Source: Actinomycetota bacterium
GTDB taxonomy: Bacteria; Actinomycetota; Acidimicrobiia; Acidimicrobiales; Ilumatobacteraceae
Reading direction: 5' to 3'
DNA length: 41,557 nucleotides
NCBI GenBank assembly: GCA_007279905.1
Contig: QYPH01000003.1
Coordinates: 1 to 41,557 of the forward strand
Shown here: positions 1 to 35,270 of the stretch, in pieces
Position numbering within the stretch: position 1 is the stretch's first letter
Layout of the letters: every line of letters begins with the position of its first letter
Program-made: the position numbers and the translations under genes
Notes under the pieces: model-generated
What the model was told of the DNA's origin: nothing
Databases searched by the model: none
What the model saw: the letters and a program-made list of their open reading frames with translations, nothing else

Positions 1-1574
1 ACCAGCGACTCTTCGAGTGCTCGCCATGAGGCTTCAATGATGTTTGCTGACACACCAATCGTCGTCCATGTGCGATCTCCGTTTGTTGCATCAATAAGCA
101 CTCGCGTGACAGCGCCAGTCGCAGACCCAGAGTCGAGAATACGCACCTTGTAGTCGGTGAGGTGCACTTTTGACAATTGCGGAAAGCTCTTTGCGAGTGC
201 TGCGCGCAACGCAGTGTCGATTGCATTCACCGGACCATTGCCCTCAGCAGTAAACACTTCGCGCGCTTCGCCAATCCACACCTTGACAGTTGCCTCGGTC
301 GTAAACGTGCCCATCGACGATTCATCGGTGATGACACGCATCGAATCGACTTTGAAAAAGTTTTGCTCCCACCCAGCAGCACGTCGCATCAACAATTCGA
401 GCGATGCATCGGCAGCTTCAAAGTGATAGCCCTCGTGTTCAAGGCGCTTTAAGTCGTCAATCACTTGATTGACCGCTGGCCCGTCCATGGCAAGACCAAG
501 TTCTTCTGCCTTCATCGTGATAGTTGCACGACCAGCCATTTCCGAAACCAAAAAGCGCGTGCCGTTGCCAACCAACTCTGGCGACACATGCTCATACGCA
601 TCTTTTGCACGAGTAATTGCCGAAACATGCAACCCTGCTTTGTGCGCAAACGCACCAGACCCGACATAAGGAGCCTGTGGATTGAGGGGACGATTGAGAA
701 CCTCTGCAACAAAGTTGCTCACTGCCGTGATGCGCTCAAGCCTGCCCTCGGGCAAGCACGTATAACCAAGTTTGAGTTGCAGGTTTGGAATGACTGTCGT
801 CAAATTGGTGTTGCCCGTGCGCTCGCCAAGACCATTGAGCGTTCCTTGCACATGTCGTGCGCCGCTCTGCACCGCAGCAAGCGAGTTGGCTACCGCGCAT
901 CCTGTGTCATCGTGGCAATGAATGCCGATGATTACATCCGTGCCTATATGCCGCTGCACATCGGCAACAATGCTCTGCACTTCAAATGGCAACGAGCCAC
1001 CATTGGTGTCACACAACACCAAGTGCGTTGCGCCGTTTACAACCGCACTCTCAAGTGCACGCATTGAGAACTCTGGGTTGCTCTTGTAACCATCAAAAAA
1101 GTGCTCCATGTCCACCAATACTTGGCGACCTTCACCATGCAAAAACTTCACAGAGTCGGCAATCATGGCCAATCCTTCAGTAAGCGTTGTTTGTAATGCT
1201 TGCTCAACGTGATAGTCAGATGATTTTGCAACGATGCACACTGCGGGAGTATTTGACTCGATCAAATTGCGAAGCGTTGGATCGTCATCGACCTTGCCGA
1301 GCGGGCGCCGAGTCGACCCAAATGCAACGAGAGTCGATGTTGTCAACTTCAATTCTTTTTGTGCGCGCGCAAAAAACTCGATGTCTTTCGGGTTGGCACC
1401 AGGCCACCCACCTTCAATGAAGTTCACGCCCAAGTAATCGAGTTGTTCGGCAATGCGCAATTTATCCAGGACGCTTGCCGACACACCCTCCACTTGCATG
1501 CCGTCTCGAAGTGTCGTATCAAACACCTCAACAGCGGTGTTCGCTGTCGTGGTGACTTGTGATGTTGCGCTCAT
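1..1574 (-). CDS. cimA: (R)-citramalate synthase, C-terminus beyond window
   Basis: This enzyme condenses pyruvate and acetyl-CoA to citramalate, the threonine-independent entry to isoleucine. It belongs to the HMG-CoA lyase-like TIM-barrel family with a C-terminal regulatory domain. Just after the start the translation reads FDTTLRDGMQVEGVS, the metal and substrate motif of the family. It then reads NFIEGGWPGANPKD, which is characteristic of CimA rather than LeuA. About 524 residues are visible. The last ones before the edge (TTIGVSANIIEASWRALEES) match the extreme C-terminus of the family, so only a few dozen residues are missing. The ATG at 1574 is preceded by a GAGAAA ribosome-binding site. 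An Ile-codon leader peptide and terminator lie directly upstream, which suggests attenuation by isoleucine. Confidence 0.93.
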   Translation of the reverse strand, partial: MSATSQVTTTANTAVEVFDTTLRDGMQVEGVSASVLDKLRIAEQLDYLGVNFIEGGWPGANPKDIEFFARAQKELKLTTSTLVAFGSTRRPLGKVDDDPTLRNLIESNTPAVCIVAKSSDYHVEQALQTTLTEGLAMIADSVKFLHGEGRQVLVDMEHFFDGYKSNPEFSMRALESAVVNGATHLVLCDTNGGSLPFEVQSIVADVQRHIGTDVIIGIHCHDDTGCAVANSLAAVQSGARHVQGTLNGLGERTGNTNLTTVIPNLQLKLGYTCLPEGRLERITAVSNFVAEVLNRPLNPQAPYVGSGAFAHKAGLHVSAITRAKDAYEHVSPELVGNGTRFLVSEMAGRATITMKAEELGLAMDGPAVNQVIDDLKRLEHEGYHFEAADASLELLMRRAAGWEQNFFKVDSMRVITDESSMGTFTTEATVKVWIGEAREVFTAEGNGPVNAIDTALRAALAKSFPQLSKVHLTDYKVRILDSGSATGAVTRVLIDATNGDRTWTTIGVSANIIEASWRALEESL

Positions 1575-1624: not shown

Positions 1625-1648
1625 AAAAAAGCCGCCCTTGTGGGCGGC
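1625..1648 (-). terminator. Intrinsic terminator/attenuator before cimA
   Basis: Read on the minus strand, GCCGCCC-ACAA-GGGCGGC forms a perfect 7-bp GC stem followed by six T residues. It lies about 50 nt upstream of the cimA start and downstream of the Ile leader peptide. It therefore fits an attenuator better than a simple ilvE terminator. Confidence 0.88.
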
Positions 1649-1651
1649 TCG

Positions 1652-1675
1652 GGCGTACGTCCAAAGACGTACGCC
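1652..1675 (-). promoter_or_regulatory. First hairpin of cimA leader (1:2 stem)
   Basis: A perfect 10-bp inverted repeat (GGCGTACGTC and GACGTACGCC) with a 4-nt loop. Its outer base is the last base of the leader-peptide stop codon, so a ribosome on the Ile codons or at the stop would occlude the 5' arm. I could not find a convincing alternative antiterminator pairing, so the exact switching mechanism is open. Confidence 0.75.
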
Positions 1676-1728
1676 TAACTAATAATGATGATTGCGAGAG
1701 TGGAAAGACTTGCTCCGATGTGATTCAC
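1675..1728 (-). CDS. Isoleucine-rich leader peptide of cimA attenuator
   Basis: A short reading frame starts with GTG and translates as MNHIGASLSTLAIIIIS followed by TAG. It contains four consecutive Ile codons (ATC ATC ATT ATT) just before the stop. GGAGAG lies immediately upstream. An in-frame GTG at 1743 would add five residues (MILES). The stop codon touches the first of two tandem hairpins, the second of which is an intrinsic terminator, and then comes cimA, an isoleucine-pathway gene. This is the classic layout of ribosome-mediated transcription attenuation. The peptide and hairpins are seen directly; the regulatory role is inferred from known amino-acid leader systems. Confidence 0.82.
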   Translation of the reverse strand: MNHIGASLSTLAIIIIS

Positions 1729-1782
1729 GCTCTCCAGTATCACCCCTCATCTGGGGGTTCGGCAACACAAAAAACAGATGTT

Positions 1783-1897: not shown

Positions 1898-2812
1898 TTA
1901 CGCCAGTTCACACCAGTCGATGTAGCGCTCGTCTTGGCCACGCACGGCCTTGGCATACACAGCCGCAATCGCTCGTGTCATCGGGCCAGGGCACGGAATT
2001 AAGCGCTCGTCAACCATGCTTACCGAACCAACTTCGGCAGCTGTGCCACACGCAAAGATCTCGTCAGCAATGTACAAATCGCTGCGTGCGATGTTGTCGA
2101 CACGAATGTCGTATCCCAAGTCGCGTGCAATTCGCATCACGCTGTTTTGCGTAATTCCCTCAAGCGCTCCAGCCGATGTTGGAGGAGTCAAGATAATGCC
2201 GTCGCGCACACAGAAGATATTTTCGCCGGTGCACTCTGCAACCAAACCATTTGGCGCAAGCATGATCGCCTCGTCATATCCGGCTTTGAGTGCTTCAACT
2301 TTTGCAAGTGTTGAGTTGACATAATTGCCAACGGTTTTTGCGGCAGGCGGCATGGTGTTGTGATCGTGGCGCGTCCATGAAGAAACCTTCATGCGCACAC
2401 CCTTTTCTACAGCGTCATCACCCAAGTATGCACCCCATGGCCAACACGCAATCGCAATATCAACCGTGCACGGCAGTGTGTTAAGCCCCATCTCGCCGTA
2501 TCCGTAATACGCAAGTGGTCGCACGTAACAGGCCGGCAATCCAGTTGACTTCACTGTGTCTTTTGTGGCCTGCACGATTTCTTCAACCGAGTACGGCATG
2601 TCCATGCCCATGATCTTCGCCGAGTTGTACAAGCGCTTGATGTGGTCGGTGAGCCGAAAAATTGCTGGACCATTCTTGGTCTCGTATGCACGAATGCCTT
2701 CAAATACTCCTGTGCCGTAATGCAATGTGTGCGTCAGCACGTGTACTTGCGCTTTATCCCAATCGACGAGCGTGCCGTTCATCCAGATTTTTGGTGTAGT
2801 TGTAATTGGCAT
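1898..2812 (-). CDS. ilvE: Branched-chain amino acid aminotransferase
   Basis: A PLP-dependent class IV aminotransferase that carries out the last step of Ile, Leu and Val synthesis, using glutamate as amino donor. The 304 residues match the usual family length. The N-terminus has KIWMNGTLVDWDKAQVHVLTH and GTGVFEGIRAYE, both typical. AAKTVGNYVNS carries the expected PLP lysine, and AECTGENIFCVRDG is the phosphate-cup region. The ATG at 2812 has GAGGAAAAC before it. leuB lies 55 bp upstream on the same strand, so the two are probably co-transcribed. The downstream gap leads to the cimA leader. Confidence 0.95.
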   Translation of the reverse strand: MPITTTPKIWMNGTLVDWDKAQVHVLTHTLHYGTGVFEGIRAYETKNGPAIFRLTDHIKRLYNSAKIMGMDMPYSVEEIVQATKDTVKSTGLPACYVRPLAYYGYGEMGLNTLPCTVDIAIACWPWGAYLGDDAVEKGVRMKVSSWTRHDHNTMPPAAKTVGNYVNSTLAKVEALKAGYDEAIMLAPNGLVAECTGENIFCVRDGIILTPPTSAGALEGITQNSVMRIARDLGYDIRVDNIARSDLYIADEIFACGTAAEVGSVSMVDERLIPCPGPMTRAIAAVYAKAVRGQDERYIDWCELA

Positions 2813-2867: not shown

Positions 2868-3896
2868 CTATCGCTCTCTGTTGGCCACTCTGGCACTAAT
2901 TTCGTCGCCCATTTGGCTTGTTGCGCCACTTGCAGGTGCCTGACACGCCGCGCGCACGCGCTCGGCCATTGCGTTTTCACCCAAAAACTCAAGCATGTGT
3001 GCTGCCGACAAAATGGCAGCAACTGGGTTGGCCTTGCCAGTGCCAACGATGTCGGGTGCCGAGCCGTGCACGGGTTCAAACATCGACGGCCCGGTGCCTG
3101 CTGGGTTGAGGTTTGCCGATGAAGCGATGCCGATGCCACCGCTCACTGCTCCGCCCAAGTCGGTAAGGATGTCGCCAAACAAGTTGTCGGTCACGATCAC
3201 GTCGTAGCGATGTGGGTCTTGCACAAAATAAATACAAGCAGCGTCTACGTGGTTGTAGGCCGTTGCCACTTGAGAGAATTCTTTAGCAACACGGTCAAAG
3301 GTGCGCTGCCACAAATCGCCAGCAAACGTAAGCACGTTTGTTTTGTGCACAAGGGTGAGATGTTTGCGATGCCGAGTTGCAGCCAACTCAAATGCATAGC
3401 GCACGCAGCGCTCTACGCCGTGCGCAGTGTTGACACTGCCCTGCGTTGCAACTTCGTATGGTGTGCCCTTGCGCAACACGCCACCCTCGCCAACATACGG
3501 GCCTTCCGTATTTTCGCGAATCACAATGAAGTCGTGTGGCGTAGTCTGCCCAGGCGCAGTGCCTGCAAATGGTCGACGATTGATATACAAATCCAACTCA
3601 AAACGCATCTTGAGCAACAGCCCGCGCTCGATCACACCTGGCGGAACTCCTGGAGTACCAACCGCGCCCAACAAGATCGCATCAAAGTCGCGCAACTGAT
3701 TGAGCGTTGCGTCCGACAACACTTCACCGTCGCGCAAATACCGAGCGCCACCCAAATCAAAATCGGTTGTCTCAAGTTGTGCTCCAGCAGCACGCAAAAC
3801 TTTGAGTGCCTCTTTCACAACCTCTGGGCCAATACCGTCGCCGCCAATTACTGCAATGCGATGCTTCGATGATGGAGTTGTCTTTGATGTAGCCAT
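2868..3896 (-). CDS. leuB: 3-isopropylmalate dehydrogenase
   Basis: NAD-dependent oxidative decarboxylation of 3-isopropylmalate in leucine synthesis; in a citramalate route it also acts on methylmalate. The N-terminus reads [15 protein letters not shown]. Later come [17 protein letters not shown] and [20 protein letters not shown], the substrate and metal motifs of the isocitrate/isopropylmalate dehydrogenase family. I chose the start at 3896 ([13 protein letters not shown]), giving 342 residues. An in-frame start 18 codons upstream would overlap the divergent greA start and adds residues not typical of the family. It probably leads the leuB-ilvE unit. Confidence 0.93.
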
Positions 3897-3943
3897 AGCC
3901 CTTACATCGTAGGGCGCAATACACACCGCTAGCCTTTGTGCGC

Positions 3944-4426
3944 ATGGCAAAGCACCAACTTTCTCAAGCGACCCACGACCGCTTAACTGCCGAATTCACC
4001 GACCTCACTACGCGTGGACGCATTCAGGTCGCCGACAAGATTGAGCGCGCACGCGAAATGGGCGACCTCAAAGAAAATGGCGACTACCACGCGGCCAAAG
4101 ACGAGCAGGGCCACATGGAAGGCCGTATTCGCCAAATCGAATCCTTTCTCGAGGACGCCGAAATTTTTGCTCCCGCACCGCATGGCGTAGTTGGCCTCGG
4201 CACCATTGTCACCATCGTGTACGACGGAGACTCCGACGCCGACGCCGAGCGTTATTTAATTGGTCATGTCGAAGAAAAGCCAGAAGCACACGACGTCAGT
4301 GTGATGAGCCCAAGTTCGCCACTCGGTTCAAGTTTGCTCGGAGCAACAGTTGGCGCAATGGTCACGTACGAAGCACCAAAGGCGAAACTCAAAGTCAAAG
4401 TGCTCAATATCGAGTCAGCAAAATAG
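3944..4426 (+). CDS. greA: Transcription elongation factor GreA
   Basis: Rescues backtracked RNA polymerase by stimulating transcript cleavage. At 160 residues it has the normal length. The N-terminal coiled coil contains [20 protein letters not shown], with the acidic tip residues expected of GreA. The C-terminal FKBP-like domain ends with [21 protein letters not shown]. The ATG at 3944 is preferred; an in-frame GTG lies six bases upstream. There is no Shine-Dalgarno sequence. TAGCCT ends eight bases before the ATG, so the mRNA may be nearly leaderless. The gene is divergent from leuB and is followed 18 bp later by a hydrolase gene. Confidence 0.95.
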
Positions 4427-35163: not shown

Positions 35164-35211
35164 TTCAAGAAGTAATCAGGATCAAATAATTTAGTGAGGT
35201 CCCCCGATTCA

Positions 35212-35245
35212 CCCGCCACTCGTGTACAGCGAGTGGCGGGTTTTT
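35212..35245 (+). terminator. Strong intrinsic terminator
   Basis: A perfect 11-bp stem, CCCGCCACTCG with CGAGTGGCGGG, with a 7-nt loop and five T residues. It ends the transcript of the secreted helical protein. The weaker A-tract on the other side gives little support for a reverse reading. Confidence 0.92.
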
Positions 35246-35270
35246 CGTTTCCAGGATGAACTCCGTCGAA

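Follow-up and report, generated by a model that had tools for sequence, protein, structure and literature searches.

The region in front of cimA, the gene of citramalate synthase, raises two questions: whether a run of isoleucine codons followed by a stop, a hairpin and a terminator forms an attenuator, and, if this is the case, how the position of the ribosome could decide between termination and readthrough. The window (the whole stretch of DNA that we analysed, 41,557 nucleotides) is one entire contig of an Ilumatobacteraceae draft genome of 1.54 Mb that is 69% complete. The 80 named relatives of its cimA that were kept belong largely to the Ilumatobacteraceae, the Acidimicrobiaceae and other Acidimicrobiia or Actinomycetota, and several are lake-derived judging by their titles. 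Our answer to the first question, based on comparison of sequences, is that attenuation sensing Ile-tRNA very probably acts on cimA. The second question receives a much more tentative answer.

The leader in front of cimA

The features needed for the argument are the following, in the numbering of the window.

3..1574, minus strand: cimA, citramalate synthase (TIGR00977, 674.8 bits against a cut-off of 450), running off the contig
1625..1630, minus strand: U tract of terminator T, read from the sequence
1629..1650, minus strand: intrinsic terminator hairpin T, from folding and a terminator scan, conserved in 63 aligned elements
1652..1675, minus strand: hairpin H1, 10 bp with loop TTTG, from sequence and folding; its aligned pairs covary
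1675..1677, minus strand: leader stop TAG, whose G is the first base of H1
1681..1692, minus strand: putative control codons ATC ATC ATT ATT (four Ile), positions -5 to -2 before the stop
1675..1728, minus strand: leader ORF MNHIGASLSTLAIIIIS, 17 codons with a GTG start, probably leaderless; alternative GTG at 1743
1736..1741, minus strand: -10-like hexamer GATACT, 7 nt ahead of the leader start codon
1760..1765, minus strand: -35-like hexamer TTGCCG, 18 nt ahead of the -10 and different from the strict TTGAC form
1898..2812, minus strand: ilvE, the upstream neighbour (NF005146, 418.9 bits)
2868..3950, minus strand: leuB, upstream of ilvE (NF002898, 489 bits)

The first-pass annotation of this DNA had described a leader peptide ending in AIIIIS with four Ile codons, a 10-bp hairpin touching its stop, a terminator with six T residues and then cimA, and all of these are indeed found there. 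Read along the minus strand, the order is GCA ATC ATC ATT ATT AGT TAG, H1, T, six T and cimA. H1 is a perfect 10-bp stem, GGCGTACGTC-TTTG-GACGTACGCC, and T has the letters GAGCCGCCC-ACAA-GGGCGGCTT followed by the six-T run. The leader region folds with a z of -3.9, and not one of 200 shuffles folded as well. The terminator scan by itself proves little, because its single terminator-like site compares with 0.8 expected in shuffles. No Rfam leader or T-box family reached its gathering score between 1400 and 2000 of the window (the best was Phe_leader, 29.5 bits against 55), and a T-box was absent among the eight Rfam matches in this interval.

The start of the leader was approached through the geometry of the promoter, with a rule that asked for a -35-like element (seven spellings allowed), a spacer of 17 or 18 nt and a -10-like hexamer. 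In 86 of 98 cimA leaders of the family such a promoter-like pair ends 6–9 nt before an in-frame ATG or GTG located 11 to 26 codons from the stop (11 codons in 6 of the 86). The strict form (TTGAC) was present in 75 of the 98, against 0.000 in base-shuffled upstream regions. Because the pair sits so close to the leader start codon, the mRNA is probably leaderless, with transcription starting at or within a few bases of that codon. The earlier annotation had extended the leader to 1743, and a 22-amino-acid ORF from the GTG at this position does appear among the listed reading frames. However, the GTG at 1728 fits the conserved distance from promoter to start better and is probably the true start, giving a leader of 17 codons.

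Conservation in the family and beyond

Within the family, 138 of 150 genomes had a cimA match at E ≤1e-100, and 132 upstream regions were examined. The six left out were five genomes in which the match lacked the 5' end of cimA (G060, G073, G084, G110, and G120) and G136, whose contig starts inside H1, so that the 3' arm of H1 and T are visible and the Ile codons are not. The full set (Ile run, one codon, stop, H1 at or beside the stop, and T) was found in 101 of the 132 regions, 94 of them by an automatic rule (at least three Ile among the last five or six codons before the stop), 4 by motif and 3 by eye (L085, L389, and L390). The leader statistics rest on the first 98 of these 101 elements. 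That close relatives might have lost the Ile codons had been named beforehand as an outcome that would speak against an attenuator, and this is not the case: the set is present in all 11 examined members of the window's own genus.

The 31 regions without the element come from more distant members of the family, namely every examined member of four genera, g4 (10), g9 (11), g11 (1) and g12 (9). In g4, g9 and g11, ilvE runs nearly straight into cimA, while in g12 there is a long region upstream of cimA, yet without the element. Genera without the leader at cimA still keep the one at ilvB, as seen at four loci of g4, two of g9 and one of g12 (L351). We also looked for displaced elements with R1, a covariance model built from the family cimA elements. 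None was found, at E up to 5, in 12 longer regions from g4, g9 and g11 (11 of which have leuB by tblastn) or in the nine g12 cimA regions. A looser scan upstream of leuB in 11 regions of g4, g9 and g11 gave only three weak matches, without a comparable run of branched-chain amino acid (BCAA) codons.

The codons of the run are conserved by position. Counting back from the stop, Ile is found in all 98 cimA leaders at position -2, in 94 at -4, in 89 at -3 and in 77 at -5, and the codon at -1 is variable. The codon at -2 (1681–1683 in the window) is ATT in 96 leaders and ATC in two. The cimA ORFs of 30 genomes, some of them partial, summed to 176 ATT, 483 ATC and 13 ATA; in some genomes, including members of the window's genus, ATT is the commoner Ile codon of cimA, and in five of the 30 ATT accounts for 0 of 22–25 Ile codons in cimA, yet the leader ends in ATT. 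Since AUU is kept at -2 even where it is the minority codon in cimA, it may have been selected there as a slow, wobble-read control codon.

The stop is equally constant, with TAG in all 98 leaders, and this is what could favour an explanation in which readthrough of, or a frameshift past, UAG takes the ribosome into T and so blocks it. This explanation is barely credible. Beyond the stop none of the three frames is favoured (83, 79, and 79 of 94 sequences have no further stop over 20 codons), and related leaders depart from TAG, 4 of 29 ilvB leaders having TGA or TAA and 3 of the 51 parsed elements described below having TGA. As H1 is still located at the stop in such elements, we reject an essential role of UAG as a signal.

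The same architecture is found at other genes of the pathway. The genome of the window has a second element, located 54 nt ahead of the ilvB start codon ATG, with a leader ending in VVVVIS-TAG (L162 1066–1143, G000:C56; also L227). ilvB was found in 56 of 61 family genomes, and among the 30 family ilvB loci listed, 29 have the architecture, the thirtieth sequence ending ca. 34 nt upstream of the match. The codons differ with the gene: the last six codons of the 98 cimA leaders (588 residues) contain 358 Ile, 10 Leu and 12 Val, while those of the 29 ilvB leaders (174 residues) contain 19 Ile, 35 Leu and 97 Val, the latter spelled GTA 45, GTC 27, GTG 16 and GTT 9 times. These same-family ilvB leaders with their Val and Leu codons are, at the level of sequence comparison, the best natural control for the leader of cimA.

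Further away, R1 (E ≤0.01) matched 161 of 296 genomes in a search of the whole class, in which the own family was contained. We parsed 51 further elements (L150, L151, L154–L162, and L165–L204), an incomplete list chosen by us among the better R1 hits, six of which are ilvB elements of the own family. By tblastn with the proteins of the window and the ilvB of its own genome, 34 of them precede leuB, 11 ilvB and six cimA. A second model (R2), built from 30 ilvB elements, matched 86 of 296 genomes in a set for the phylum that contained the window's class as well. Of the 30 R2 loci listed we inspected 19, and all of them lie before ilvB, 12 being from outside the class (L355–L362 and L365–L368). 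It would seem, then, that at cimA we see one retuned member of a leader type spread over the phylum, in which the codons follow the gene. Within the window itself there is one more match to R1, a weak one, at 35169–35250 on the plus strand (16.9 bits, E 0.12); it consists of a GC-rich hairpin and a T run, lacks an Ile leader and is probably an ordinary terminator.

The claim that an Ile-codon attenuator precedes cimA is backed by the conserved Ile codons, by covariation in H1 (see below) and by the Val and Leu codons of the ilvB leaders in the same family. The most prosaic alternative would be that T is just the terminator of the leuB-ilvE unit, standing behind a chance ORF, and the window does have ilvE upstream in the same orientation. 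Neither the conservation of the Ile codons nor a covarying hairpin anchored at the stop, a promoter-like start of the leader and ilvB codons that match their gene would be expected then, and we give this alternative practically no credence.

Two hairpins and the position of the ribosome

The structural analysis was based on an alignment of 63 elements, a non-redundant choice from the 98 of the family. H1 is formed in 96.1% of the cells of this alignment, and for eight of its nine aligned pairs there is some sequence in which both partners have changed. Sliding the partners by one to three columns lowers the pairing from 96.6% to 27–54%. None of 500 shuffles reached the scores of the structure, with the caveat that kin sequences can exceed shuffles. 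The stem of T is nearly invariant in sequence and therefore tells little by covariation, and the U tracts are imperfect in many genera.

Taking the 98 family cimA elements and the 51 others together, 144 of 149 have two hairpins from the stop onwards. If 0 is the first base of the stop, the first pair of H1 falls at 0 to +2 in 140 of the 144, and the end of its 5' arm at +10 to +12 in 124; H1 and T are separated by 0–7 nt. The ribosome, as known from work in Escherichia coli, has a footprint of ca. 12–13 nt counted from the first base of the A-site codon, and the 5' arm of H1 coincides with the footprint assumed in this way for a ribosome at the stop. On this model a ribosome at the stop would cover just the 5' arm of H1; from the last Ile codon about half of this arm would be covered, and from the first nothing.

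Two features of trp-type attenuators are present by sequence, a run of codons for an amino acid of the pathway (Ile in the cimA leaders, Val and Leu in the ilvB leaders) and an intrinsic terminator between leader and gene. The E. coli trp, his and ilv attenuators have both, control codons for the amino acid of their product and a terminator in the leader, and they switch by mutually exclusive base pairing. We searched for the equivalent here with a partition function, computed on RNA truncated at assumed ribosome edges between -18 and +15. The probability of T fell below 0.9 in none of the 98 family elements at edges -18, -3, 0, 3 and 15, and in only 2, 3 and 2 of them at edges 6, 9 and 12. 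Among 80 ilvB and class elements (some loci are in both sets) it fell below 0.8 in 2–10, depending on the edge. Complementarity between leader and the 5' arm of T was not above chance (mean z 0.33, 0/91 below -2) and that to the 3' arm of H1 was little (mean z -0.12, 6/91 below -2), both compared with shuffles. Only the 3' arm of T gave values somewhat above base shuffles (mean z -0.90, 20/91 below -2), which were reduced with codon shuffles (mean z -0.54, 8/91 below -2); L005, L088 and L091 are among the leaders with this excess.

On the partition function and on the duplexes of leader and terminator compared with shuffles, we reject an antiterminator as a general feature: none was found, and T folds nearly wherever the ribosome stands. 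The first annotation had seen no clear antiterminator in the window, and this observation extends to the relatives, as T keeps a probability of at least 0.9 in at least 95 of the 98 family elements and of at least 0.8 in at least 70 of the 80 others. For this reason the cimA element is set apart from the attenuators of the trp type, and the sequence does not explain the switch itself.

A classical attenuator could of course contain an antiterminator that escapes recognition, such as pairing between the leader and the 3' arm of T. The z values given above for this arm, and the two or three of 98 elements in which T is weakened at edges +6 to +12, point in this direction, and in the Corynebacterium glutamicum ilvBNC leader, according to the available part of PMC11857589, the antiterminator takes only the boundary trinucleotide of the terminator. 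However, besides the stability of T, the pairing has no fixed place along the leader, it beats T's own arms in 9 of 91 elements, and the leaders of 11 codons provide almost no RNA upstream of a ribosome that has stalled. We consider a hidden antiterminator improbable.

What the position of the ribosome can clearly change here is one thing, H1. We infer stalling, a response to isoleucine and the sign of the effect of H1, and the simplest reading with the right logic would be that a folded H1 means readthrough and a covered H1 termination. Transcription would begin at or near the leader start codon, and the ribosome would translate 11 to 26 codons and meet the Ile run. With charged tRNA-Ile at hand it would go on to the stop and cover the 5' arm of H1 (ca. 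12 nt), and T would terminate. When tRNA-Ile is short, the ribosome would wait on the Ile codons and leave H1 wholly or partly free. The free H1 would fold against the base of T and could hinder it, perhaps because the completion of T inside RNA polymerase has to accommodate H1 near this base, and the polymerase would read into cimA. That H1 favours readthrough in this manner is possible, and we propose it tentatively. The idea is less compelling for elements in which the gap between H1 and T is 5–7 nt. A ribosome that has codon -2 in its A site would already be over about half of the 5' arm of H1, and this makes the toggle less sharp.

This last point makes the opposite sign a serious rival, unlikely as we consider it. 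H1 would then aid T, be it by pausing or by stacking, and termination would drop when a ribosome halted at the end of the Ile run melts the foot of H1. The most conserved codon of all, -2, would place the edge of the ribosome near +6, inside H1, and with imperfect U tracts in many genera T may need help. On the other hand, H1 would be out of reach for a ribosome whose A site holds the first Ile codon, and with the E. coli footprint the position from which the entire 5' arm is covered is that of the stop and not that of the Ile codons. A third option, for which we see only a slim chance, leaves H1 with no role other than shortening a gap: the stalled ribosome, coupled to RNA polymerase (e.g., through NusG), would block T and free it on release at the stop. 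No antiterminator is needed for this, and H1 folds away ca. 24 nt between ribosome and T, but the Ile codons are far from the U tract.

A scheme of this kind might apply to attenuators throughout the Actinomycetota: the place of the ribosome would decide the folding of the hairpin anchored at the stop, this abutting hairpin and not competition for bases would decide termination, and swaps of a few codons would retune the element for ilvB, leuB or cimA. We hold this generalization with considerable doubt. If it were true that the switch works without an antiterminator, there would be an added way for the ribosome to control termination. For the sensing of tRNA, the elements at these three genes together represent an experiment in codon swapping done by nature.

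Comparison with known leaders and physiology

In attenuators that work by coupling, as in pyrBI, the leader ORF runs into the terminator. The cimA element is different, since its stop precedes both H1 and T and no frame is preferentially open beyond it. The leaderless short ORFs with polycysteine runs reportedly found in mycobacteria are closer in one respect, as they too are leaderless actinobacterial leaders with a run of one amino acid. Their control is described as translation attenuation in the available part of PMC13236596, whereas the cimA leader has an intrinsic terminator.

The nearest relatives are the leaders of actinobacterial ilvB, for which attenuation has been documented or proposed in the accessible parts of three sources (PMC10272879, PMC11857589, PMC13236596). 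Those collected by Seliverstov et al. (2005, PMC1262725) are alike in having a short ORF with a run of Ile, Val or Leu and an intrinsic terminator before a BCAA gene, and the mode of regulation is left open there, as far as the available text goes. In that portion of the work the gene is ilvB and the ORFs are said to overlap the terminator, whereas in the window the gene is cimA, the run is of Ile only, and the stop lies at the foot of a separate hairpin with the terminator downstream; the same portion names no cimA leader. It also states that replacing the candidate regulatory codons of the Streptomyces coelicolor ilvB leader left regulation unaffected (PMC1262725), and for this reason a classical mechanism should be assumed only with caution. 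A switch of the kind proposed here could bear on the poor fit of actinobacterial ilvB leaders, that of S. coelicolor included, to classical attenuation.

The ilvB-II motif and the C. glutamicum ilvBNC leader likewise combine a BCAA-rich leader peptide with a terminator, judging by the text available of PMC10272879 and PMC11857589. In C. glutamicum transcription starts one nucleotide from the leader start codon (PMC11857589, available part), much like the leaderless start that we propose for cimA. However, the antiterminator overlaps the terminator in these systems, according to the same partial texts, and the gene is ilvB, while folding gives no such overlap in the cimA element. Along similar lines, the leader of Mycobacterium tuberculosis ilvB1NC has an intrinsic terminator preceded by BCAA control codons (LVVI) that the ribosome reads, and differs in its 166-nt leader sequence, in a proposed antiterminator and in the gene, ilvB1 and not cimA (PMC13236596, in the part available). 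In the open literature searched (subscription journals were mostly outside it) we met neither an attenuator described for cimA nor leaders of this type described for Acidimicrobiia. The leader described here provides a plausible regulator for cimA in actinobacteria of a class that has become known mostly through metagenomes.

Dependence on cimA for isoleucine can be judged to some extent from threonine deaminase. Among eight genomes the model TIGR01127 gave a match over its cut-off in one, weaker matches in five (the genome of the window has one of 196.5 bits against a cut-off of 378.75) and none in two. The latter (G010 and G013) are 98–99% complete and carry the leader, and the absence of matches to this single model suggests that cimA may be their only route to isoleucine.

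A final observation concerns the DNA just upstream of the leader promoter. Between 1783 and 1871 of the window, on the minus strand, there is a run of 9-mers that resemble DnaA boxes (with up to two mismatches), nearly all on one strand and several of them 12 nt apart. A replication origin at this place is not supported: dnaA is far away in three single-contig relatives, and GC skew sampled in one genome gave no clear signal either way. At least one such box with no more than one mismatch accompanies 68 of the 98 cimA leaders (240 nt searched), compared with 3 of the 29 ilvB leaders (up to 200 nt).
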